A stretch of 49,447 bases of DNA from an uncultured Bacteroidota bacterium (lineage in GTDB: Bacteria; Bacteroidota; Bacteroidia; 2-12-FULL-35-15): NCBI GenBank assembly GCA_903919535.1, contig CAIXIP010000217.1, positions 1 to 49,447 of the forward strand. The letters are read 5' to 3'. How positions within the stretch are numbered: the first letter of the stretch is position 1; each line of letters opens with the position of its first letter. The notes beneath the pieces are model-generated. The model was not told the origin of the DNA and searched no databases. It worked only from the letters and a program-made list of their open reading frames with translations. The position numbers and the translations under genes were made by a program. Below are positions 12,885 through 27,663 of the stretch, in pieces.

Positions 12885-13646
12885 TTAAGTATGCTGATTT
12901 TGTTTATTGAAAATATTATTTACTACCGATAAACCGATGTACAAAAATATAATAAAAGGGATTGCAATGAACTGAAATAGTATTAACAATAGCACAGATA
13001 TTATTAAAAAAGAATAACGAATCTTATTATCCGCCCAACCGAAATTTTTGAATTTTAGTGCAAACAAAGGAAGTTCTGCATTTAAAAGATAGGACATCAC
13101 AAATGTTAGAGAAAAAAGGAAATAAAGATTGCCGGTAATTGTATTCACCTCAAATCCTGCAATGTTTGGAGTAAAATGATTTATCAATGGTATTGAGCAG
13201 ATTAACAATGTGTTTGCTGGTGTGGGAACCCCGATGAAAGAGCTGGATTGACGTGTATCTATGTTGAATTTTGCTAATCGAACACAAGAAAAAATAGTTA
13301 TAATAAACCCTGCATATGGTTCCCAATGTGTGTAAACAGAACCTTGTATGGAAGAAACTAACAATATCTGAGGATTAACAATTCCGGCAATCAAACAAAA
13401 CATAACAACTCCAGGCACAACACCAAATGTTACCATATCCGCCAATGAATCTAATTGCTTTCCCATTTCACCACTCACTTTAAGTAAACGAGCTGCGAAT
13501 CCGTCAAAAAAATCCAATATCGCTGCAATGCCTACCCAATAGGCACTCAAAACTAAATCGCCACTAAAGGCTGTCACAATTGCAATACAGCCACAAAATA
13601 AATTGCCGGCAGTAATCGCATTCGGTATATGTTTTTTTATGTCCAT
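12885..13646 (-). CDS. pssA: CDP-diacylglycerol--serine O-phosphatidyltransferase
   Basis: CDP-alcohol phosphotransferase motif DGFAARLLKVSGEMGKQLDSLAD. Confidence 0.9.
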   Translation of the reverse strand: MDIKKHIPNAITAGNLFCGCIAIVTAFSGDLVLSAYWVGIAAILDFFDGFAARLLKVSGEMGKQLDSLADMVTFGVVPGVVMFCLIAGIVNPQILLVSSIQGSVYTHWEPYAGFIITIFSCVRLAKFNIDTRQSSSFIGVPTPANTLLICSIPLINHFTPNIAGFEVNTITGNLYFLFSLTFVMSYLLNAELPLFALKFKNFGWADNKIRYSFLIISVLLLILFQFIAIPFIIFLYIGLSVVNNIFNKQNQHT

Positions 13647-13698: not shown

Positions 13699-15177
13699 AT
13701 GCAATTGCTACTGCCCTTTATTTATGCAATCCTTTTTATTTTGTTGATCTACAAAATGAATTTTTTTGTCATTGACGGACTTTCAAAAAGGTCAATTGTG
13801 TTTGTTTTTATATTGAAAATTATAGTGGGAATAGCACTCCATTTTATATACACCTTCTATTACCCTGAAGGAGATATGAAATCATATTTTGATGACGGGA
13901 ACAAATTATTTTACATACTAACCAATGACAGCAACCATTTTAAAGAAATTATTCTGAAAGGAGATAATTTCAATGAATTATTTACCTGGAATGCAAGTTT
14001 TGAGAAGACCCTTTACAATGACTCACGAACAATGGTTTTATTGAATTTACTGTTCCGCTTTTTTTCATTTGGGAACTTTTATGTACATATTATATTCATG
14101 TCTTTCCTTTCTTTAATCGGCTTAACTGCGATTTATAAAACATTTATAATTTATTTCAAAAGCACTAAGAAAATATTATTTTTTATTGTGTTTTTATTGC
14201 CTAGTGTATTGTTGTGGTCTTCAGGAGTGTTAAAAGAAGGATTATTGTTTTTTGGAGTCGGATTATTGCTTTACACAACAAACTGCGGATTAGCCACTAA
14301 ATATAATTTCAGAAACGTACTTTTATTATGTCTCTCCATTTTCATTTTACTCTTTCTTAAATTTTATATTCTAATTGCGCTTTTACCCGGATTATTTGCT
14401 AACTTTTTGATTTCCCATTCCTCTAATCAATTTGTCTTTCTTAAATATATTTCCAGCTATTTTATCCTTTTTGTATTAATTGCTTTTTTTTCCTTTTCGA
14501 AACCAGAATTTAACCCAATCAAAATCATAGCGAATAAACAAGAAAAATCTGAAGCGGTTGCAATGGGGGGAGTATTTCTATTAAGTGACAACTATTTTGT
14601 CAGAGTTGACTATCAGCAAAAAGATGAAATTTTAATTCCACAAGAAAATAACAAATTCAAGATTAAATTGCACAGCAACTATGATCAATGGAAACTAACA
14701 TCTTTTAAAGATACAATACATATTATTCATTCTACAGACACTTCACTTTATAAGCTTGTCTATATTGTAGTTCCTCCAAACTACAACATCAACCCATTAA
14801 AATTGCAGCCTACTATAAGTAGTTTGCTTAAAAATACTCCGAAGGCATTTTACAATTCCCTTGCCACTCCTCTAGAATTCGGAACTAAAAACTGGTTGAT
14901 ATTTTGTGCTTCTCTGGAAAATATATTTTATTTCCTTTGCATCATTTTGATGATCATTTATTTTAAAATTCAAGAATCGGATAAAGCAATTCTCTTTTTT
15001 TGCTGTTCCTTTTTCGTCATCATTTATACATTAGCAGGACTTACCACTCCTTTTGCAGGAGCGTTAGTAAGATATAGAACTCCTGCATTGCCTTTTATGA
15101 TGATTTTTATTTTTATGTTAGTAGACAAAAATAAATTAAAAACAATTCCATTTTTAGGAAAGTATTTGACCGATTAA
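13699..15177 (+). CDS. Multi-pass membrane protein, polysaccharide polymerase / GT-C-like candidate
   Basis: 492 aa, about 10 hydrophobic segments, FYYPEGDMKSYFDDGNKLFYIL; first gene of a tight three-gene run with MBOAT and SGNH genes. Confidence 0.5.
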   Translation: MQLLLPFIYAILFILLIYKMNFFVIDGLSKRSIVFVFILKIIVGIALHFIYTFYYPEGDMKSYFDDGNKLFYILTNDSNHFKEIILKGDNFNELFTWNASFEKTLYNDSRTMVLLNLLFRFFSFGNFYVHIIFMSFLSLIGLTAIYKTFIIYFKSTKKILFFIVFLLPSVLLWSSGVLKEGLLFFGVGLLLYTTNCGLATKYNFRNVLLLCLSIFILLFLKFYILIALLPGLFANFLISHSSNQFVFLKYISSYFILFVLIAFFSFSKPEFNPIKIIANKQEKSEAVAMGGVFLLSDNYFVRVDYQQKDEILIPQENNKFKIKLHSNYDQWKLTSFKDTIHIIHSTDTSLYKLVYIVVPPNYNINPLKLQPTISSLLKNTPKAFYNSLATPLEFGTKNWLIFCASLENIFYFLCIILMIIYFKIQESDKAILFFCCSFFVIIYTLAGLTTPFAGALVRYRTPALPFMMIFIFMLVDKNKLKTIPFLGKYLTD

Positions 15178-15192
15178 AACATATAAAAAATT

Positions 15193-16614
15193 ATGCTTTT
15201 TAATTCTTTTCCATTTATAATTTTTTTACCAATAGTGTTTTTTCTCTATTGGTTGTTAAATGATAAATATAGATGGGGTGTATTATTAGTTGCAAGCTAT
15301 TATTTCTATTCAGGCTGGGGGTTTTGGTATGTCTTATTATTACTTTCGACTACGCTCATTGATTATTTCATGGCAATAAGAATTGAGCAGGCAACAACAC
15401 CATACAAACGAAAATTATTTTTGATAATTAGCCTGTCGTGTAATTTGGGTGTTTTACTCAGTTTCAAATATTTTATATTTTTATTTAATTCAGCAGCATT
15501 TCTAATAAGCAATTTCAGCAATAATCAAGTTCAATCCCTCGCACAAATTATTATTCCGGTTGGTTTATCATTTTATACATTTCAATCAATAGCCTATACA
15601 ATTGATGTATACAGAGGAGAAGTAATCCCAGAAAAAAGTCTCCCTCGCTTTGCATTATTTGTTTCCTTTTTCCCTCAATTAGTTGCTGGACCTGTTGAGC
15701 GTTTCAATCATTTAATGCCTCAATTAAAAAAGAAATCAATTTTCACAGTTGAAATGTTATATCCCGCAATCAGAATTGCTGTTTGGGGCTTTTTTAAGAA
15801 AATGGTAATCGCAGATAGACTTGCAGAAATTGTTGATCCAATTTTCAAAAACGTACACATCTATTCCGGAGCTACGCTTTTATTATCCGGATTTTTATTT
15901 GTTGTTCAGGTGTATTGTGATTTTTCCGGTTATACAGATATCGCAACAGGTGTGGCAAAACTATTTGGTATAGAATTGACATTGAACTGGCGCAGACCAT
16001 TATTGTCGAAATCATTAATTGAATTTTGGAAACGAAATCATATTAGTATTACCAGTTGGTTTCGTAATTATTTATACATTCCACTAGGTGGCAACAAGGT
16101 ATCATACCAACGATGGTTACTTAATATATTTTTGGTTTTTTTTATCAGTGGATTATGGCATGGTGCCAGCTGGACATTTGCATTATGGGGAGCAATGCAT
16201 GGAATGGTTTATTGTATTGAACTAATTATCAAAAAGAAATTCCCATACTCTAAAACCCCTGTTATTTGTGGCCATATTTATTTATTGCTTTTTCATACGA
16301 TTTCTCTGATTGCTTTCCGTTCACAATCTGTAGGTGATTTGTTTTATATCTATCATAAAATTGTTGGATCATTTAATTTACAAATGCTGCCACTTGAACT
16401 CCTAAGCTTATCAGATACATTTTCATTAGTGTTAAATATTGTATTGATATTATTTTTATTCCTCAAAGAAAAGCAAGAAGAATCTGATTTTTTAAATTCA
16501 AAAAGCAAAATTTATTCAAAATATTTACGACCTATTTTCTATTTGTGTTTATTTATTTTCATATTTCTTTTAGGTAATTTTAATAGCAACCAATTCATTT
16601 ATTTTAGATTTTAA
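15193..16614 (+). CDS. MBOAT-family O-acyltransferase (AlgI-like)
   Basis: QLVAGPVERFNHLMPQL, WRRPLLSKSLIEFWKRNHISITSWFRNYLYIPLGGN, FISGLWHGASWTFALWGAMHG (conserved MBOAT His). Confidence 0.93.
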   Translation: MLFNSFPFIIFLPIVFFLYWLLNDKYRWGVLLVASYYFYSGWGFWYVLLLLSTTLIDYFMAIRIEQATTPYKRKLFLIISLSCNLGVLLSFKYFIFLFNSAAFLISNFSNNQVQSLAQIIIPVGLSFYTFQSIAYTIDVYRGEVIPEKSLPRFALFVSFFPQLVAGPVERFNHLMPQLKKKSIFTVEMLYPAIRIAVWGFFKKMVIADRLAEIVDPIFKNVHIYSGATLLLSGFLFVVQVYCDFSGYTDIATGVAKLFGIELTLNWRRPLLSKSLIEFWKRNHISITSWFRNYLYIPLGGNKVSYQRWLLNIFLVFFISGLWHGASWTFALWGAMHGMVYCIELIIKKKFPYSKTPVICGHIYLLLFHTISLIAFRSQSVGDLFYIYHKIVGSFNLQMLPLELLSLSDTFSLVLNIVLILFLFLKEKQEESDFLNSKSKIYSKYLRPIFYLCLFIFIFLLGNFNSNQFIYFRF

Positions 16615-16616
16615 TT

Positions 16617-17534
16617 TTGAAAAAATTAGTCGCATATTTTTTAATAATAGTTGTCGCAGGGTATACGATACGCGAAACAGTGTACTATGGATTAAGGGAA
16701 AATAAGAGTGGGATTTTTGATAAATACAATACGATTTTCCTCAAAAAAAATAATTTTGAAACACTAATTATTGGATCTTCCAGAGCTGAATCGCATTTCA
16801 GTTGCAAAATAATAGATTCTGTTTTACATACTAATTCATATAATATTGGAATTCAGGGTTCCTCGCTCCCATTTTCATTGGACGTATTTAGCGCATACCT
16901 TGAGAACAGCGAATTTCCGCATAACATCATTTTTAATATCGATCACCATATAAACGCTTGTGATAATGATACCGTTTTTATGTATCCTCGATATTTCGCT
17001 TATTTAAGTAATAAAACACTCTACACCGCATTAGAAAAAAGAGATGGGCGCTTTTTGGGATTTCGATATTTCCCTTACTATAGCTTGCCTTTCATGGGTG
17101 ATAATTATTTGTCAGCATCCATGCGTGGATTTTTTAATAAGCCGGGTAAATATGATCTGAATTATTACAAAGGTTATACCATCATTGAAGATATAAAATG
17201 GAAATACAAACCATATTTCGCTTGTGATGAAGCTGTGATGTATGATAGAATTGACAGCATTGCCTCACTTTGCAGATCGCATCACGCAAATTTATTTTTA
17301 GTGTTATCTCCCATTTTCTCAAAGGCTTCTGCGCAAATTTTAAACAACACTTCATTGATCAAAAAACTTAACGCGAAGGCACAATCTAATAATGTAGTAT
17401 TACTCGATTATACAACCGATGAAATCTGCAATGACTCTACTCTATTTGCAGACCCGTATCATTTAAAGAAAAAGGGGGCTGAACTTTTCACATTAAAACT
17501 CGCGAAGGACATAACCCCCCTATTGAATAAATAA
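16617..17534 (+). CDS. SGNH/GDSL-like O-acyltransferase partner protein (AlgX/DltD-like role)
   Basis: TTG start, N-terminal signal anchor; LIIGSSRAESHF (block I Ser) and ADPYHLKKKGAELFT (DxxH block V); 2 nt after the MBOAT stop. Confidence 0.7.
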   Translation: MKKLVAYFLIIVVAGYTIRETVYYGLRENKSGIFDKYNTIFLKKNNFETLIIGSSRAESHFSCKIIDSVLHTNSYNIGIQGSSLPFSLDVFSAYLENSEFPHNIIFNIDHHINACDNDTVFMYPRYFAYLSNKTLYTALEKRDGRFLGFRYFPYYSLPFMGDNYLSASMRGFFNKPGKYDLNYYKGYTIIEDIKWKYKPYFACDEAVMYDRIDSIASLCRSHHANLFLVLSPIFSKASAQILNNTSLIKKLNAKAQSNNVVLLDYTTDEICNDSTLFADPYHLKKKGAELFTLKLAKDITPLLNK

Positions 17535-17645
17535 TTTTGAATATCAAAACATATCTTTTTTCTCAATTTATAACTGTTTCAAAGAACAATACTCCAAAAC
17601 TCCATTTTATGACAATAAAAAGCGGGCAAAATCGTTTAGCTTTGG

Positions 17646-17677
17646 TTTGCATTTAAACACAATTTAGTTTAACTTTA
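17646..17677 (+). promoter_or_regulatory. Candidate promoter TTTG-N20-TAACTTTA for the porV-like/porU2-like operon
   Basis: TTTG at 17646-17649 (-33-like) and TAACTTTA at 17670-17677 (7/8 match to TAnnTTTG), ATG at 17687. Confidence 0.4.
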
Positions 17678-17686
17678 TGTTCTGTT

Positions 17687-18766
17687 ATGAATAAGAAAAT
17701 AATAATTATAGCAATAGCGTTATTTTGCATTGGGAATAACGTTTCAGCCCAAGCACCAAAATATAGTAATGAGTTTTTAAATGTTGGTGTTGGAGCAAGA
17801 GCTTTAGGAATGTCAAACTCCTACATCACAACAGTTAATGATGTTACAGCAGGTTATTGGAATCCAGCAGGATTATTAGGAATTGGCAATCAACACCAAA
17901 TAGCATTAATGCACAGTGAATATTTTGCAGGTATTGCAAAGTATGATTATGGCGCATTTGCAACCAGATTGGACAGTTCATCTGTATTGGGCGTAACACT
18001 TATCCGATTTGGAGTTGATGATATTCCTAATACTACCGACCTAATTGATGCCAATGGAAATGTCGATTACAATAGAATTTCTACTTTTTCGGCTGTAGAT
18101 TGGGGATTTTTAGTTTCATATGCAAAAACATTAAAAATTCCGAATTTGCGAGTTGGAGCAAATGTAAAGATCATCAGAAGAAAAGTTGGTGATTTTGCGG
18201 GTGCATGGGGATTTGGTTTAGATGCAGGCGCACAATACGATTATAAAAAATGGAAATTTGCTGCGATGGCACGTGATGTAACATCCACTTTTAATGCCTG
18301 GAGTTTTAATATGTCCGATAAAATGAAAGAAACATTTATTGCAACAGGGAATGAGATCCCTTCCAATAATGTAGAAATCACATTGCCGAAATTACTTTTA
18401 GGAAGTGCACGAAAATTCAATATCACCAATAAAATATCACTTCTTACTGAATTGAATTTAGATGCAACTTTTGATGGCAAACACAATGTCATGATAAAAA
18501 GTAAAGTAGTGAGCCTTGATCCGCATCTTGGCTTAGAAGCGGCCTATATGAATTTAATTTTTTTAAGAGCAGGAATCGGTAATTATCAAACCTATACTGA
18601 TGCATTAGGAAAAAAAATAAAGACATTCCAGCCGAACATCGGAGTTGGAGTAAGAATTAAATCAGTAACAATTGACTATGCTTTAACAGATATTGGTGAC
18701 CAATCAGTGGCTTTATATTCTAATGTATTTTCTTTAAAAATAGATATAAATAAAAAAACTAAATGA
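17687..18766 (+). CDS. PorV/PorQ-family type IX secretion-associated outer-membrane protein (PorV2-like)
   Basis: Signal peptide, KYSNEFLNVGVGARALGMSNSYITTVNDVTAGYWNPAGLLGI (typical PorV/PorQ N-terminus), beta-barrel pattern. Confidence 0.85.
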   Translation: MNKKIIIIAIALFCIGNNVSAQAPKYSNEFLNVGVGARALGMSNSYITTVNDVTAGYWNPAGLLGIGNQHQIALMHSEYFAGIAKYDYGAFATRLDSSSVLGVTLIRFGVDDIPNTTDLIDANGNVDYNRISTFSAVDWGFLVSYAKTLKIPNLRVGANVKIIRRKVGDFAGAWGFGLDAGAQYDYKKWKFAAMARDVTSTFNAWSFNMSDKMKETFIATGNEIPSNNVEITLPKLLLGSARKFNITNKISLLTELNLDATFDGKHNVMIKSKVVSLDPHLGLEAAYMNLIFLRAGIGNYQTYTDALGKKIKTFQPNIGVGVRIKSVTIDYALTDIGDQSVALYSNVFSLKIDINKKTK

Positions 18767-21700
18767 TTAAACGGTTACTTTTCGTATGTCTGCTAATGCT
18801 TTTGTTTATGGGGCTAAAAGCACAACCATACGGAAACGAATGGATCAATTACTCTCAGAATTATTACAAAATAAAAATTGCCAAGAACGGTATTTATCGA
18901 ATTAATGCTGCAACCTTATCTGCCTTAGGAATTAATTCAGTTAACCCACAAAATCTTCAACTTTTTAACAAAGGGATTCAGCAATATATTTTTGTAAAAG
19001 ATGATGGTGATAATATCTTCAACTCAACAGATTTTATTGAATTTTATGCCGAAGCGAACGATGGCAAATTAGATTCTTTGCTATATAAGAATACCCCCTT
19101 TGTTCCAAATCCTTATTATAGTTTAATTAATGACACTGCTATATACTTTTTAACTTGGAACTCTTCTACCAACAACAATAGGATGAGCATTGAAACTGAT
19201 ACGGCTTTTAGTTCATACACGCCCGACACCTATTTCTTTAAAGAAGAAATCCAATCTTTCCATTCAGGATATTTTGCAGGTGAAACAGATGTTGTTGGAG
19301 GCACTGATTCTCGATACATTCGCTCCGAAGGATGGTTTGACGGGAATGTTATAACTCTGGGGTCTGGAGGCATTCAAACATACTCTATCAGCACTCCTAA
19401 GATATTTACAAGTGGCCCCAATCCACTAGTTAAAATTGTTGCTATTGGTGCTTCAAAAAATACGCAAGCCAACCCTGACCATCATTTACTTATCGAATAT
19501 CAAGGTTCAGGAGGGTATCAATTATTTAAGGATACTTCGTTCAGAGGATATGAAGCAAATCGTTTTATTGTTAATTCTATTTCTGCATCATCGTTAGGAA
19601 GTTCAACAACCAATTTCCGATTTACAAGTGTTGCAGACCTTCCAAATGTCACCTCGAACAGAACTACAATATCGTATATCAATGTCAAATACCCTCATTT
19701 GCTTGACCTGGAAGGAACAACTAAATTTCTATTTTACTTACCTTATAATGGTTTATTAAAATCCTTTTTAAACATTAGTAATTTTAGTGCATCTGGCACT
19801 ACTCATGTATACGACCTTAGCAATCACAAGCGTATTGATGTAGTTCAAAGTGGCAGTAATTTTAAGACACTAATACCAACCAACGGTAGTGAAAAAAAAT
19901 GTTATATCACTTCTGATGGAAACATCACAAATATTACTTCTATTCAACCTGTAACCCCATCAGCAAAGTTCACAGATTACTCAATATTTTCAGCTGACTC
20001 TGCATTCATTATAGTGACAAATAAATTATTACTGCCTTCAGCAATTACCTATAAAAATTACAGGAGTTCTATTAACGGAGGCTCCAACAATGTAGTAATT
20101 GCTGACGTAGATGAGTTATACGACCAGTTCGCTTATGGAATTGTTAAAAGCCCATTATCAATAAGAGGTTTCGCAGATTATCTGTTGGATACTTATCCTG
20201 CCAATGCACCACCCAAAAATTTATTTTTGATAGGTAAATCAATTCACTTTTATGTTTGTCGACAAAATGCAGCAAACTATGCAAACTGTTTAGTTCCTTC
20301 ATTTGGGAATCCCTCTAGTGATAACTTATTTACTGCCGGATTAAATGGCACTCAATTGGAGCCAGCTATTCCGACAGGTAGATTAGCTGCAAAAAACACA
20401 ATTGACATTGATTCCTATTTTAATAAAGTAGTTCAATATGAAGGCAATCCTCCGGCAGAATGGATGAAAGAGGTTTTACATTTTGGAGGAGGAGACGATG
20501 CAAGCTTACAGAATACAATTAAAAATTATTTAAATGGGTATAAATATATTATTGAAGACACTTATTATGGCGGGCATGTAACTTCTTTTTTTAAAGCTAA
20601 CTCGCTTCCGATGCAACAGCCTTCTTCTGATTCTGTCCGGAATATAATTAATAACGGGGTATCATTAATGACCTTTTTTGGACATGCTTCCGGCAATAGT
20701 TTCGATCAGAGTTTAGACAATATTAGTTCTTACGATTTTCAAGGGCATTACCCTTTCATGCTTACTAACGGATGTTATTCGGGTGACATACATTCATCGG
20801 GCATGGGTACATCTGAGGAATATATATTAACTCCGCAAAAAGGTATGATAGGATATTTATCAACTGTTGGGTTAGGAGTTCCATACGCTTTAAACACTTT
20901 TTCAAATGAATTTTACAATCAGGTAGCAAAACTAAGTTACGGGAAAAGTGTTGGATATAACATCAAAAAAACAATTCATAATATTGAACCCTTTGCAATT
21001 TCAGGTAGCAACCCTGATTCATTAATACGTGCAGTTTGTTATGAGATGACATTGCATGGCGACCCATCCATTATTATCAACGCTCAAAAAAAATCTGATT
21101 ATAAAATCACCAACAACGATGTATATTTTGATTTATTAACAAATTCTGATACCGTTACTGTATATGCAATTCGCACAAATATTGGCAGAGCACAAAATGA
21201 TACAATAATAAATGAGTTACTACGAATAGCTCCAAATGGTGATTCTACAAGATATACGGTCAGAAATATAGCACCAAAATACAAAGACACGATTTCATTC
21301 AAGTTACCAATTAATTTTTCGACAGATATTGGTTTGAATAAAATAAAAATAACTCTAGATGCATATAATACGGTTAGCGAGTTAGACGAAACAAATAATA
21401 GCACAGGTTTTATTGATGCATTTATAAATGGAGGAGCCATTGTTCCCGTTTACCCATACGAGTTTGCCATTGTACCAACCGATACCATAACCTTAAAAGC
21501 ATCTACTGCGAATCCATTTGCAATATCAAAAAACTACATTTTCCAAATTGATACTACTGATACGTTTAATAGTCCTTCTTTTATAACCACAACAATTAAC
21601 GCCCCTGGCGGTGTTGTAACATGGAGGCCATCTTCCATTTTCCCTTTACATGACAGCACTGTATATTACTGGCGAGTTAGCCCTGATTCTACAGGCCCCA

Positions 21701-23811
21701 CTACGGGATTTGTTTGGCGCGAAAGTTCCTTTCAGTATATTCAAAACAGACATGGTTGGGAACAAGCTCATTTTTTTCAATTCAAAAATGATGGCTATCA
21801 ATATGTAAAATTTATCAGGCCATTAAGAAAATTTCAATTTGCTGACGATTTAAAAAATGTTGTTTGCTTAAATGGTATTTACCCTTATATATATCCCTTA
21901 GATATTTCATATCGACTCGATGGTGGACTAATGCACTATTGGAGTTGTACCCCCTATACTGGTATTACTTTTGTTATTTTTAATGGAAGTAGTGGTCAAC
22001 CTGAACAAAGTGTCAAACTTGTCCCACCTGCATTAACCCCTTCAGGAGCGCCATATCCAGATCTTGATTATGGACAATATGGCAATCGACATTGCGTACC
22101 ACGTAATTTATTTGCATTTGATTTTTTCTCAAATGATGCAAATTATTGGCGCCCGGCAATAAAAACATTTGTCAATAATATTCCTGCCGGATCATATATT
22201 ATGGCTTATAGTCAGGGAAATGCTTCCATTCAGATGGACACCACTTTATATCAATCTTTTGAATCATTTGGCAGCGGAGGAATACGCAGCATTGTTGATA
22301 ACAGACCATTCATTTTTTTCGGAAAAAAAGGTTCTGCTATTGGTAGCGCAAGAGAAATAATTGGTGATTCACTCACCTCTATCATTAAACTGGATACTAC
22401 TATTCAGTCAAACTGGAATGAAGGCTTTATCGCGTCCCCAATAATTGGTCCTGCTTTAAGCTGGGGATCTTTGCATTGGAGACAAAAAACGCTGGATGGT
22501 TCAAGCACAAAGGATAGTATTGTAGTTAGAATAATAGGTATTAAATCTAATGGACAAGAAGTAACACTTGTAGATTTCCCTAAAGATTCGGTAGATGTAC
22601 TGAATTTGGCATATCATAATGTAGATGCCACCATTTATCCAAAAATTCGATTGGTAGCCTTCATGAAAGATGACAGTCTTCATACTCCTCCGCAAATGAA
22701 ACGATGGCAAGTAATTTATGCTCCCGTGCCAGAAGCAGCAATAAATCCTCCACTTGGATATTCTATGAGTAATGATAATGTGCAGGAAGGTGATAATATT
22801 ACCTTTCATGTTCCGATACAAAATATAGGTGATATTCCATTTAATAAAGACAGTTTGTTGGTTACCTATTGGATAGAAGATGTAAATAGAGTGAAACACC
22901 AATTGCCTTCTACACTTAAGAAAAACCCATTTATTCCAAGTGAAGTAATTATAGATACCGTTCATTTGAATACGGCCACTTACAGGGGTACTAACTCGTT
23001 GTGGATTGAAGTAAATCCAATTAATCAACCCCATTCACAATTGGAACAATATCATTTTAATAACATTATACAAATCCCATTTCATGTTGCAGCTGATAAG
23101 ATTAACCCATTATTAGATGTAACTTTTGATGGCGTTCACATTTTGAACAATGATATTGTTTCAGCAAAACCAAACATTTTAATAAAACTAAAAGATGAAA
23201 ATCAATTTTTGGCTTTAAACGACACAAATGCTTTTCATATTTTTGTTCAAACCCCTTCAAATAGTGTTGCACAACGTATTTATTTCGGCAATACGCTAAC
23301 ATTTATTCCAGCTACATTACCGTATAATAGTTGTAAAATAAATTATACGCCTGCATTTTCTCAAGATGGTACCTACCAATTAATAATTCAGGCAATGGAT
23401 AGAACAGGTAATCAATCTGGAGCGATTGATTATAAAATAAATTTCGAAATAATTAATAAGGCAAGCATTACAGAAGTGATGAATTATCCAAATCCTTTTT
23501 CGACTGCAACACATTTTGTATTTACTTTAACAGGTTCAGAAATCCCTAGTAATTTCAAAATACAAATAATGACCATTACAGGAAAAGTTGTCCGTGAGAT
23601 TTTTCAAGATGAGTTAGGCGCTATACATGTTGGAAGAAACATTACAGATTTCGCATGGGATGGGAAAGATGAATTTGGCGACAAATTAGCCAATGGTGTA
23701 TACCTTTACAGAGTAATTACAAAACTTAATGGGGAAGATATTGAGAAACGTCAAACAGATGCTGATCAATACTTTAAAAAAGGCTGGGGTAAAATGTATC
23801 TGATGCGTTAA
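18763..23811 (+). CDS. Putative type IX secretion system sortase PorU2-like (peptidase C25 domain with T9SS-type C-terminal domain)
   Basis: 1682 aa, ATG overlaps preceding stop (ATGA). C25 catalytic-site patterns MTFFGHASG (His641) and LTNGCYSGD (Cys671); C-terminal NYPNPFS...ANGVYLYRVITKLNG...FKKGWGKMYLMR FlgD/T9SS CTD-like. Confidence 0.85.
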   Translation: MIKRLLFVCLLMLLFMGLKAQPYGNEWINYSQNYYKIKIAKNGIYRINAATLSALGINSVNPQNLQLFNKGIQQYIFVKDDGDNIFNSTDFIEFYAEANDGKLDSLLYKNTPFVPNPYYSLINDTAIYFLTWNSSTNNNRMSIETDTAFSSYTPDTYFFKEEIQSFHSGYFAGETDVVGGTDSRYIRSEGWFDGNVITLGSGGIQTYSISTPKIFTSGPNPLVKIVAIGASKNTQANPDHHLLIEYQGSGGYQLFKDTSFRGYEANRFIVNSISASSLGSSTTNFRFTSVADLPNVTSNRTTISYINVKYPHLLDLEGTTKFLFYLPYNGLLKSFLNISNFSASGTTHVYDLSNHKRIDVVQSGSNFKTLIPTNGSEKKCYITSDGNITNITSIQPVTPSAKFTDYSIFSADSAFIIVTNKLLLPSAITYKNYRSSINGGSNNVVIADVDELYDQFAYGIVKSPLSIRGFADYLLDTYPANAPPKNLFLIGKSIHFYVCRQNAANYANCLVPSFGNPSSDNLFTAGLNGTQLEPAIPTGRLAAKNTIDIDSYFNKVVQYEGNPPAEWMKEVLHFGGGDDASLQNTIKNYLNGYKYIIEDTYYGGHVTSFFKANSLPMQQPSSDSVRNIINNGVSLMTFFGHASGNSFDQSLDNISSYDFQGHYPFMLTNGCYSGDIHSSGMGTSEEYILTPQKGMIGYLSTVGLGVPYALNTFSNEFYNQVAKLSYGKSVGYNIKKTIHNIEPFAISGSNPDSLIRAVCYEMTLHGDPSIIINAQKKSDYKITNNDVYFDLLTNSDTVTVYAIRTNIGRAQNDTIINELLRIAPNGDSTRYTVRNIAPKYKDTISFKLPINFSTDIGLNKIKITLDAYNTVSELDETNNSTGFIDAFINGGAIVPVYPYEFAIVPTDTITLKASTANPFAISKNYIFQIDTTDTFNSPSFITTTINAPGGVVTWRPSSIFPLHDSTVYYWRVSPDSTGPTTGFVWRESSFQYIQNRHGWEQAHFFQFKNDGYQYVKFIRPLRKFQFADDLKNVVCLNGIYPYIYPLDISYRLDGGLMHYWSCTPYTGITFVIFNGSSGQPEQSVKLVPPALTPSGAPYPDLDYGQYGNRHCVPRNLFAFDFFSNDANYWRPAIKTFVNNIPAGSYIMAYSQGNASIQMDTTLYQSFESFGSGGIRSIVDNRPFIFFGKKGSAIGSAREIIGDSLTSIIKLDTTIQSNWNEGFIASPIIGPALSWGSLHWRQKTLDGSSTKDSIVVRIIGIKSNGQEVTLVDFPKDSVDVLNLAYHNVDATIYPKIRLVAFMKDDSLHTPPQMKRWQVIYAPVPEAAINPPLGYSMSNDNVQEGDNITFHVPIQNIGDIPFNKDSLLVTYWIEDVNRVKHQLPSTLKKNPFIPSEVIIDTVHLNTATYRGTNSLWIEVNPINQPHSQLEQYHFNNIIQIPFHVAADKINPLLDVTFDGVHILNNDIVSAKPNILIKLKDENQFLALNDTNAFHIFVQTPSNSVAQRIYFGNTLTFIPATLPYNSCKINYTPAFSQDGTYQLIIQAMDRTGNQSGAIDYKINFEIINKASITEVMNYPNPFSTATHFVFTLTGSEIPSNFKIQIMTITGKVVREIFQDELGAIHVGRNITDFAWDGKDEFGDKLANGVYLYRVITKLNGEDIEKRQTDADQYFKKGWGKMYLMR

Positions 23812-25347
23812 TTACTCTATTTTTTTATAGATTAACAATTTTCCTTTGTCGTATTCCTTGTTCCATTGATTTGCATTTTTAATTACAAAATCGGGGACAA
23901 CACATTTTTCACTATTTACAATTACATAAATAGATGAAGCATGATTCAAGGAATCATATTTACTAAAAGGATAAAATACCAAATTCGAATATTCCTTAAA
24001 CCCATTGTATATAATATGATTCTCTGCAAATTCACTATCTGTTAAAATTATTTTCTTACCTGTGAGGTTTAATTCTTCTATCTGGGTTTTAATTAAATTG
24101 CTTGATCGTAATGCAGGAACTCTATAGTTAGAATTGCTATATACAAAATTTGCTGCCAAAATTAAGAACGGTAACAATAGCAATAAATTCCAGTTTTTGT
24201 TTTTTTGTTTCATAAAGTAAGAAAACAATATAACAGATAAAAAAAAGCCAAACAGTATTGTTCTATTTACAGAAACAGAGCTGTAATTACAGACAATTAA
24301 TGCAGTAAATATTATCATCAAATAATAATATATTTTTCTCTTAGCTTTAAAAATTAAAAATGCCGACAGTATCGACAATGGCGCAACAGTTAATATCCAC
24401 AACCTATCAACCATAAATAACACTCCGTATTTTTCAGTGTGAAAAAGAAAAATAAATTCAGACAGTAGCACTAAAGAGTATAATGCAATGTATGAGTGTA
24501 AATCATTGAAATTTCTATTCCATACTTTTGGAAAAGAATAAGCCGCAAAAATTAAAATAAATAAATAGCCGAGTTCCGAGTTAAACCATTTTAAAATATT
24601 TGAACTAAATATTGCTTTAATATATGCTTTTGAATACTCATCAAAAAAGCCTGTATTATTAAAAGCCAACATCGATTTAATACGAAAAAAAGCATCTCCT
24701 GTAATTAAATAATAAAAAGTAAGCAGCAACAGCATGGAGGCTAAAGCAAGTAAAATTGTTTTTTTCCAAAAAAAATAATTTTGTTTTTTGAGAATATCGT
24801 AAACAAAAATAAGAAGTATAAAAGGCATAACAAGTAAGATGGTTTCCTTTGTCAAAAATCCCAATAGAAGGATAACGTTTATTAAAAACGGATAGATTAC
24901 TTTTTTTTCATATTGTCTTCCATAATAAAGCAATACAATACTGGCAATACAATAAAAGGAAACAATTAAATCTGGAAACAATGCAATAGAATATGTTATT
25001 TGCATCGTGTTAACAGCAATTAGAAAGGAGGCAATAAAGGCAACTTGAACATTTGTAGTTTTATTAAGAAACAAAAAAACAATCGTAATTGTAAAACAAC
25101 TTAACAAAAGGGGCCACAATGCAATCGTATAAGGATTTATGCCGAAAACAAAAAAAATAATACTTGTGGGAATATAAACACCAAACCTATTTTGAAACTG
25201 ATCATACGTTAAATTTAAATGCCCCTCTAAAAAACTATGCGCATTATAAGTATAGCAATAATCGTCACTGAAAGGCCACACAGGCTTCAAAGCAAACCAA
25301 GCCGTTATATGCAAAAGAAGGATTAGAATCAATAATTTTTTCTGCAT
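23812..25347 (-). CDS. Glycosyltransferase family 39 / PMT-like membrane protein
   Basis: 511 aa; N-terminal FSDDYCYTYNAHSFLEGHLNL (acidic DD in first loop), about 11 hydrophobic segments. Confidence 0.65.
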   Translation of the reverse strand: MQKKLLILILLLHITAWFALKPVWPFSDDYCYTYNAHSFLEGHLNLTYDQFQNRFGVYIPTSIIFFVFGINPYTIALWPLLLSCFTITIVFLFLNKTTNVQVAFIASFLIAVNTMQITYSIALFPDLIVSFYCIASIVLLYYGRQYEKKVIYPFLINVILLLGFLTKETILLVMPFILLIFVYDILKKQNYFFWKKTILLALASMLLLLTFYYLITGDAFFRIKSMLAFNNTGFFDEYSKAYIKAIFSSNILKWFNSELGYLFILIFAAYSFPKVWNRNFNDLHSYIALYSLVLLSEFIFLFHTEKYGVLFMVDRLWILTVAPLSILSAFLIFKAKRKIYYYLMIIFTALIVCNYSSVSVNRTILFGFFLSVILFSYFMKQKNKNWNLLLLLPFLILAANFVYSNSNYRVPALRSSNLIKTQIEELNLTGKKIILTDSEFAENHIIYNGFKEYSNLVFYPFSKYDSLNHASSIYVIVNSEKCVVPDFVIKNANQWNKEYDKGKLLIYKKIE

Positions 25348-26058: not shown

Positions 26059-27663
26059 GTGAAAACACTTCAACTTTTATCCCTTTCAATATTAAGTGGC
26101 CTTCTTTTAGGCCTTTCGTGGATCCCAACTGGGTTGGCACCCATGTTATTCGTGGCATTTGTACCTCTGTTAATTGTTGAACATTCTATTTTCAAAAATC
26201 CTCTGAAAAATAAAACACTCACGATTTTTCTTTGTGCTTTCATTACATTTTTCACGTGGAATCTGGCTGCTACATGGTGGATTAAGAATGCTTCTTTTGG
26301 CGGTGCAGTATTAGCATTCGTAGGCAACTCTGTTTTAATGTCGATTCCTTTTTTATTTTTTCATCAGGTAAAAAAACGAATAGGAGAAAAATGGGGTAGC
26401 ATTATATTTGTCTGCTTTTTTATTGCGTTTGAATATTGGCATTTAGATGGCGAATTATCTTGGCCCTGGCTTACACTTGGCAATGCTTTTGCCGACACAC
26501 CAAATTTAATTCAATGGTATGAATATTCAGGAATGCTTGGCGGAAGCTTATGGATTTTGGTAACTAATGCTTTGGGTTTTGAAATTTATAAAAAGTATAA
26601 AGTAGCAAGTATTAAATATCAAGTAATTGGATTAATTTCCGTTATTATTATTCCAATTTCCGCATCTTATATTATTTCCTTTTCTCAAAATAAATTTATA
26701 AAAGGTGGAGTTCAAGTTGTAATAGTTCAGCCAAATATTGATCCTTATAACGAAAAATTTTCCGGCTCCTACGAAGAGCAATTAAATAAAATGTTGCTAC
26801 TCGCTGCACAAAAAACAGACTCCACAACTGACTATTTGGTTTTCCCCGAAACAGCTATCACTGAAGAATTATGGGAGAATCAACTAGAACAAAGCAGCAG
26901 TATACAAACAATTCAAAAGTTTTTAAAACACTTCCCGAAATTAAAAATCATTACTGGCGCTTCAACAGCAAAAGCATTTCAGGTCGATGAAGAATTATCT
27001 GCAACAGCGCGTAAATTTTCAGGAGCCAACACTTATTACGATGCATACAATACCGCCTTGCAATTAGACAACAGTGGGCGAATACAAATTTACCACAAAT
27101 CACAATTAGTAGCAGGTGTTGAACGAATGCCTTTTCCTGTGCTATTCAAACCACTCGAAAAATTTGCTCTTGATCTCGGAGGAACTGTTGGAAGTTTGGG
27201 TACTCAAAAAGAACGAACAGTTTTTACTTCACCTGATGGCTCAATAAAATCTGCTCCCGTAATTTGCTATGAAAGTTTATTTGGCGAATTTGTAAGTAAA
27301 TATGTTCAGAATGGCGCACAATTTATTGCAATCATCACAAATGATGGGTGGTGGGGCGACACACCTGGCTATAAGCAACATTTAAAATATGGAAGATTAA
27401 GAGCAATCGAAAACAGAAGATGGGTTGTTCGTTCAGCAAATACTGGCACCTCTTGTTTTATAACACCACTTGGCGAAATACAACAGACAACTGAATGGTG
27501 GACTCCATGCGTTATCAGCCAAAAAATTCAGTTGTACACTGAGATTACTTTTTATACAAATCATGGGGATTACATTGGAAGGTATGCCTTGTATATTTCT
27601 TTACTCTTAATTATCTTTTCATTGCTACTTAGATTCAATATCATTAATAAATTTATTAAATAA
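26059..27663 (+). CDS. lnt: Apolipoprotein N-acyltransferase
   Basis: GTG start; LGLSWIPTG, FPETAI (Glu), KSQLVAGVERMPFP (Lys), VICYESLFGEFV (Cys), TNDGWWGDTPGYKQHL. Confidence 0.93.
   Translation: MKTLQLLSLSILSGLLLGLSWIPTGLAPMLFVAFVPLLIVEHSIFKNPLKNKTLTIFLCAFITFFTWNLAATWWIKNASFGGAVLAFVGNSVLMSIPFLFFHQVKKRIGEKWGSIIFVCFFIAFEYWHLDGELSWPWLTLGNAFADTPNLIQWYEYSGMLGGSLWILVTNALGFEIYKKYKVASIKYQVIGLISVIIIPISASYIISFSQNKFIKGGVQVVIVQPNIDPYNEKFSGSYEEQLNKMLLLAAQKTDSTTDYLVFPETAITEELWENQLEQSSSIQTIQKFLKHFPKLKIITGASTAKAFQVDEELSATARKFSGANTYYDAYNTALQLDNSGRIQIYHKSQLVAGVERMPFPVLFKPLEKFALDLGGTVGSLGTQKERTVFTSPDGSIKSAPVICYESLFGEFVSKYVQNGAQFIAIITNDGWWGDTPGYKQHLKYGRLRAIENRRWVVRSANTGTSCFITPLGEIQQTTEWWTPCVISQKIQLYTEITFYTNHGDYIGRYALYISLLLIIFSLLLRFNIINKFIK

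Follow-up and report, generated by a model that had tools for sequence, protein, structure and literature searches.

Acyltransferase genes linked to an additional PorV2–PorU2 pair in Bacteroidota suggest a second, glycan-modifying attachment route of the type IX secretion system

In the type IX secretion system (T9SS) of Porphyromonas gingivalis, PorU, PorV, PorQ, and PorZ form the attachment complex, with PorZ bringing A-lipopolysaccharide (A-LPS) to PorU (PMC5562754, PMC8545088). An amide bond joins T9SS cargo to sugars substituted with seryl, glycyl, or alanyl groups, and the linking sugars vary by species: in P. gingivalis the linker bears a C4H4O3 group, perhaps succinate, and that of Prevotella intermedia is partly methylated (PMC7468200, PMC13086638, PMC11969387). 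The route by which P. intermedia adds alanine to its linker is unknown (PMC11969387). Pairs of a membrane-bound O-acyltransferase (MBOAT) and an SGNH protein are best known from the O-acetylation of peptidoglycan and exopolysaccharide (PMC12148441). Here we describe a locus joining these two kinds of gene, in a 49,447-nucleotide stretch (the window) of contig CAIXIP010000217.1 from an uncultured Bacteroidota bacterium (assembly GCA_903919535.1). MBOAT and SGNH genes stand upstream of genes for PorV2 and PorU2, and a multi-pass membrane protein gene (MEM) precedes them. We tentatively read these four genes, with MEM as an optional member, as one inherited unit consisting of a second T9SS attachment pair and a dedicated glycan-acylation module, a reading to which we give slightly less than even credence. 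The main features, including the C-terminal domain (CTD) of PorU2, are as follows.

13699..15177, plus strand: MEM, multi-pass membrane protein, 492 aa (open reading frame call)
15193..16614, plus strand: MBOAT of the AlgI/PatA type (PF03062, 94 bits)
16617..17534, plus strand: SGNH acyltransferase, DltD-like, TTG start (conserved motifs and fold match)
17687..18766, plus strand: PorV2, outer-membrane protein of the PorV/PorQ family (NF052325, 517 bits)
18763..23811, plus strand: PorU2, C25 sortase/protease paralogue of 1682 aa with a T9SS-type CTD (NF052324, 764 bits)
20005..21072, plus strand: C25 catalytic domain of PorU2, aa 415-770 (PF01364, 181 bits)
20683-20685, plus strand: catalytic His641 of PorU2 (alignment with PorU 6ZA2 and gingipain)
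20773-20775, plus strand: catalytic Cys671 of PorU2 (same alignment)
22117..22335, plus strand: ILEI (FAM3/POMGNT1-stem-like) domain of PorU2, aa 1119-1191 (PF15711, 34 bits, cut-off 27)
23485..23733, plus strand: CTD of PorU2, FlgD_ig/type A (TIGR04183, 25-27 bits, cut-off 23)

The association of the two gene pairs extends far beyond this strain. We retrieved 80 loci on the basis of PorV2 only, with no SGNH profile involved; seven of them carry MBOAT, SGNH, and PorV2 in the same order and on the same strand, where random placement with approximately three MBOATs per genome would yield about 0.03. In a set of 31 genomes, the closest homologs of both the MBOAT and the SGNH protein all lie at PorV2 loci (G006, G001, and, from another family, G023), and the next MBOAT homologs reach 45% identity at most. 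Many of the genomes compared are metagenome-assembled genomes (MAGs), and their open reading frames (ORFs) were called mechanically. A search of 395 genomes of the class with an SGNH profile built from PorV2-adjacent members returned 23 matches of at least 249 bits, followed by a drop to 179 bits; 20 of these occur at a PorV2–PorU2 locus (18 immediately upstream of PorV2, one at 1.9 kb, and one directly downstream of PorU2). The linked cases span eight families (f1, f6, f68, f75, f76, f78, f82, and f85) and three contexts: most are flanked by a phosphatidylserine synthase-like gene (PSS) and the apolipoprotein N-acyltransferase gene lnt, those in f85 have other flanks and no PSS, and in f75 (L192) the order is PorV2, PorU2, MBOAT, SGNH. 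The remaining three matches are unlinked (G446, G490, and G513). In two of these genomes (L195 in G490, L196 in G513), MBOAT–SGNH retains the f85-type left flank and PorV2–PorU2 is found on a different contig, so that the two modules are naturally separated.

The MBOATs found at these loci form one clade distinct from the other sampled MBOATs (support 97/82). As 22 of 24 MBOAT-linked loci fall within one supported set of 52 in the PorV2 tree, the most parsimonious account is that the association arose once, early on, and was thereafter repeatedly lost or replaced, with two distant cases in addition. The original prediction had joined the two cassettes by adjacency; with the neighborhood kept in at least eight families and three chromosomal contexts, they are linked by more than proximity. 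The two counts given above rule out a strain-specific accident.

Both Por proteins fall in families that NCBI had already named as "putative," because each passes the curated cut-off. PorV2 exceeds that of its equivalog NF052325 (517 vs. 325 bits) and fails the canonical models for PorQ (NF033711, 74 bits, cut-off 220) and PorV (NF033710, 35 bits, cut-off 250). The 1682-aa protein matches the PorU2 equivalog NF052324 over aa 6-879 (764 bits, cut-off 450) and scores 195 bits against canonical PorU (NF033707), under the cut-off of 420. The PorV-like/PorU2-like pair of the original prediction is thus borne out, and the C25 protein did not prove to be a canonical PorU; Pfam and NCBIfam likewise confirmed the earlier MBOAT, C25, PorV-family, and T9SS-type CTD assignments. 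Among named relatives, the nearest is Bacteroidetes bacterium RIFCSPLOWO2_12_FULL_35_15 (L097), whose PorV2 is 94% identical. No paper covered by our literature search mentions "PorU2", the hits for "PorV2" were unrelated text or came from a citation artefact, and no paper was found on either family or on an association with MBOAT–SGNH. The family names are therefore already known from NCBI, and the MBOAT–SGNH linkage is the new result.

Pfam recognizes C25 peptidase, CARDB, ILEI, and FlgD_ig domains in PorU2. The catalytic His641 and Cys671 are invariant in 121 of 121 PorU2 homologs. A search of the PDB with the single PorU2 sequence (phmmer) returned no match; profiles did match. With a profile of PorU2 N-terminal halves, the catalytic dyad aligns with those of P. 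gingivalis PorU (6ZA2, E 1.4e-19) and gingipain R; the profile is nearer to PorU than to gingipains (73 vs. 38 bits). The corresponding profile of C-terminal halves picks up the PorU 6ZA2 CTD (residues 1039-1144). In a search that did not rely on Pfam, it also matches FAM3A/B/C (E 0.001-0.009) and, weakly, POMGNT1 (E 0.17). Apart from PorU 6ZA2, a Foldseek search with the whole C-terminal half gave mostly chains of generic Ig-like domains. Because the stem domain of POMGNT1 binds carbohydrate, the ILEI domain of PorU2 is, by analogy, a possible glycan-binding domain. Two PorU2-like genes stand beside a single PorV2 at two loci (L071, L075).

The window belongs to a 3.87-Mb draft genome (G000) that is 97.95% complete, and a canonical T9SS is present elsewhere in it. 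PorU (1123 bits) lies on contig C84, with its N-terminus on C126; PorV (504 bits) is next to PorU on C84; PorQ (394 bits) is on C226 and PorZ on C33. Type A CTD matches above cut-off number 140. PorV2–PorU2 is therefore an additional pair, and replacement of the PorU/PorQ/PorZ system by PorU2 is ruled out. More broadly, PorU-family matches occur in 31 of 31 searched genomes (30 above cut-off), most of which also encode a PorU2-sized C25 protein. PorZ was found in all 31 as well, which rules out, in that form, the idea that the ILEI domain substitutes for a missing PorZ. The same genome holds a second PorV paralogue just over cut-off (262 bits; G000:C126:8293-9393), on a separate contig from the main PorV, and a 372-aa PorV-family protein whose gene (G000:C349:11525-12462) adjoins that of a 1365-aa protein with a T9SS CTD; these latter two are possibly a further shuttle-plus-partner pair. 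Two relatives have canonical PorU in tandem copies that score above cut-off (G009:C5:160057-167384 and G029:C22:9097-16373).

The upstream pair retains the features expected of an O-acylation system. The MBOAT contains the WHG histidine, with His323 and its neighbors invariant among homologs, and ends in FIYFRF, which fits the FxYxxF acyl-shuttle motif defined, and shown to be acetylated, in PatA (PMC12148441). It scores under cut-off against the DltB model (TIGR04091, 127 bits, cut-off 375). The SGNH gene of the window has no Pfam match of its own; its subfamily gives weak matches to DUF1574, GDSL, and DltD and conserves GSSR and DxxH motifs. An AlphaFold model (mean pLDDT 92.4) includes one N-terminal membrane-length helix (residues 2-27), and its best PDB match is DltD (E 2.7e-6); as modeled, the protein has a single membrane anchor and a periplasmic, DltD-like SGNH domain. 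Together, the two are predicted to O-acylate an extracytoplasmic glycan. DltA, DltC, and DltX were not recognized beside MBOAT–SGNH, and no genome-wide search for DltA or DltC was made. MEM is kept in its position across the genus at 31-66% identity, with or without MBOAT–SGNH. It has no Pfam match and could not be assigned to any family; a RYRxPxxPF-type motif is all that suggests a GT-C-like function for it.

Compared with the described attachment complex, the window pair shares the His–Cys dyad of a C25 sortase, a PorV-family barrel, and a CTD on the sortase (PMC5562754, PMC8545088). PorU2 differs from P. gingivalis PorU in being larger, in carrying extra beta-sandwich domains and the ILEI domain, and in scoring under the PorU cut-off; the pair also coexists with a canonical attachment complex and is linked to acylation genes. 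The MBOAT–SGNH pair, in turn, resembles PatA–PatB, AlgI–AlgJ/X, and DltB–DltD in having an MBOAT with the conserved histidine and FxYxxF motif and a distinct SGNH protein, anchored in the membrane, that has a DltD-like fold and the GSS and DxxH motifs. Unlike those systems, it is tied to a T9SS sortase pair rather than to a polymer synthase.

The following mechanism is proposed. The MBOAT would take an acyl group from cytoplasmic acyl-CoA and load it onto the tyrosine of its C-terminal FxYxxF tail; the membrane-anchored SGNH protein would accept it on Ser54 or Ser55 and pass it, in the periplasm, to a hydroxyl of a lipid-linked or lipopolysaccharide (LPS)-bound glycan, which would then reach the cell surface. 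After export by the T9SS, PorU2 would be tethered by its non-standard CTD to PorV2, the outer-membrane barrel. There it would recognize the glycan so decorated, perhaps by means of the ILEI domain, and its Cys671–His641 dyad would exchange the CTD of particular cargo for that glycan. An acylation module that travels with a sortase pair best fits decoration of the anchor, since known T9SS anchor glycans are decorated. The alternative attachment complex with an O-acylated anchor put forward in the original prediction is partly supported: the cassette linkage is conserved and the pair is additional, and the complex itself and the acylation of its anchor glycan are what we infer from the gene content. 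A more speculative variant, to which we would assign very little probability, is that MBOAT–SGNH installs the group that PorU2 uses as nucleophile (e.g., an aminoacyl group, by analogy with Dlt D-alanine), so that cargo would be joined to a distinct operon-made anchor in parallel to the A-LPS route.

The gene layout is as originally described, with gaps of 15 nt between MEM and MBOAT and 2 nt between MBOAT and SGNH, and with the start of PorU2 overlapping the stop of PorV2 through ATGA. The separate promoter proposed upstream of PorV2 is not supported. The TAnnTTTG (Bacteroidota -7) box is no commoner than chance in the window (92 found vs. 87.7 expected), and a single one lies in the 152-nt gap between SGNH and PorV2. 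In most relatives, the SGNH–PorV2 gap is much shorter than the 152 nt seen here, mostly about -8 to 60 nt, and gaps across the four-gene block are mostly -4 to 60 nt, an operon-like spacing. This weak candidate box and the flanking genes are as follows.

17637..17644, plus strand: TAnnTTTG box (TAGCTTTG) in the SGNH–PorV2 gap, weak promoter candidate (motif match)
12885..13646, minus strand: left flank, PSS, CDP-diacylglycerol-serine phosphatidyltransferase-like gene (PF01066; pssA 95 bits, just under the cut-off of 107)
26059..27663, plus strand: right flank, lnt, apolipoprotein N-acyltransferase (TIGR00546, 236 bits)

On the minus strand at 23812-25347, a gene for a 511-aa multi-pass membrane protein of no known family converges on the PorU2 stop. 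Its orthologs occupy the same place in G006 and G011, and other genes are found there in congeners.

The site is syntenic across the genus, and what varies is the slot between MEM and PorV2. The window, G001, and G006 have MBOAT–SGNH there, most other members have a GT-C/GT2/methyltransferase set, and one has nothing besides MEM. This rules out that MBOAT–SGNH is a constant component of PorU2 loci in the genus. The GT-C-like/GT2/methyltransferase-like set of most congeners (L038, L044, and L049) runs in the opposite orientation; its GT2 gene is confirmed by Pfam, and the other two have no Pfam match. GT-C/GT2 sets also recur upstream of PorV2, and acyltransferase-3 genes occupy the slot in nine loci (L052, L053, L055, L058, L099, L120, L200, L204, and L218; Pfam-confirmed in L099 and L120). 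Cassettes of these kinds are present at 47 of 122 PorV2 loci that also bear PorU2 and at none of 25 PorV2-only loci (Fisher p 3e-5; the loci are related). Directly upstream of PorV2, T9SS cargo-like proteins are encoded in L106, which shares a contig with L220, and in L151 (571 aa with a CTD and 906 aa with a gliding-type CTD, respectively); these are possible cargo of PorV2–PorU2.

PorV2 itself is far more widely distributed than PorU2: of the 395 class genomes, 310 (about 78%) have it as a single copy. PSS is its conserved left neighbor in many families and lnt the conserved right neighbor of PorV2–PorU2. PorV2 often has phosphatidylserine synthase on one side and a gene for lipoprotein N-acylation on the other (lnt or, in f17, an Lnb-like gene; e.g., L209-L213). 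In genomes of f17, probably Flavobacteriaceae, that lack PorU2, PorV2 is followed by the Lnb-like gene. Because PorV2 is so much commoner than PorU2, it may have a role without it, and this role is probably wider than the attachment proposed here. One MAG titled Saccharospirillaceae (Pseudomonadota; L146) carries a PorV2 that groups with Bacteroidota and is probably a mislabeled or contaminated bin.

Several observations weigh against an inherited attachment-and-acylation unit. PorV2 occurs without PorU2, and most PorU2 loci lack MBOAT–SGNH; of the 16 examined in the genus of the window, three carry it and 13 do not, so that it is optional rather than essential to PorU2. The 20 of 23 linked SGNH matches are partly a product of how the profile was constructed. 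The contrast of 47/122 with 0/25 loci is not phylogenetically independent, and an independent-pairs test had too few informative pairs. PF15711 was found in 22 of 40 scanned PorU2 C-terminal halves, such that the ILEI domain is recognized in only about half of these proteins. The turnover at the slot could instead reflect a surface-glycan hotspot that gathers genes diversifying LPS or exopolysaccharide, with adjacency owed to co-regulation rather than to a shared substrate. Slot contents are exchanged within a single genus, and several unrelated types of glycan-modifying gene use the same position (MBOAT–SGNH, acyltransferase-3, and GT-C/GT2/methyltransferase sets). However, a single MBOAT–SGNH clade stays with PorV2–PorU2 in eight families despite changes of flank and gene order, mostly at operon spacing, and a mere hotspot should sample several MBOAT lineages. 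We consider this alternative unlikely, if by no means negligible.

A fairly low probability attaches to PorU2 acting as a CTD signal peptidase or maturation protease that frees cargo, with MBOAT–SGNH acting on another polymer (peptidoglycan, as PatAB does, or O-antigen). Some members of the C25 family, gingipains among them, are plain proteases, type A cargo is both released and attached in Flavobacterium johnsoniae (PMC12618676), and the best-known substrates of MBOAT–SGNH pairs are of this kind (PMC12148441). PorU2, however, is nearer to the sortase PorU than to gingipains, has a PorU-like CTD, and is paired with a PorV-family barrel; its conserved tie to glycan modification also favors use of a glycan. 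The distribution of PorV2 permits one further reading, which we consider quite improbable: that the unit belongs with phospholipid and lipoprotein genes (PSS and lnt, or the Lnb-like gene), with the main role of PorV2 outside attachment and with PorU2 and MBOAT–SGNH as lineage-specific additions. Its single-copy occurrence between PSS and lnt across many families is in keeping with this, as is the Lnb-like gene that follows it in Flavobacteriaceae-like genomes without PorU2. Yet in most genomes the PorU2 and PorV2 genes overlap or directly adjoin each other, and Lnt and PSS are housekeeping functions, so their proximity may be just inherited synteny.

Little is known of how T9SS cargo is anchored outside the oral pathogens, and the linking sugars reported to date vary among species. 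The occurrence of the four-gene block in at least eight families suggests an anchor sugar decorated by enzymes of its own. If the unit functions as proposed, a block joining a sortase pair to an acyltransferase would provide a direct genetic handle on the synthesis and recognition of the anchor glycan. The slot beside PorV2, with its MBOAT–SGNH, acyltransferase-3, and glycosyltransferase sets, would likewise offer natural variants for matching decoration to PorU2. Many environmental Bacteroidota would then run two surface-attachment routes in parallel.

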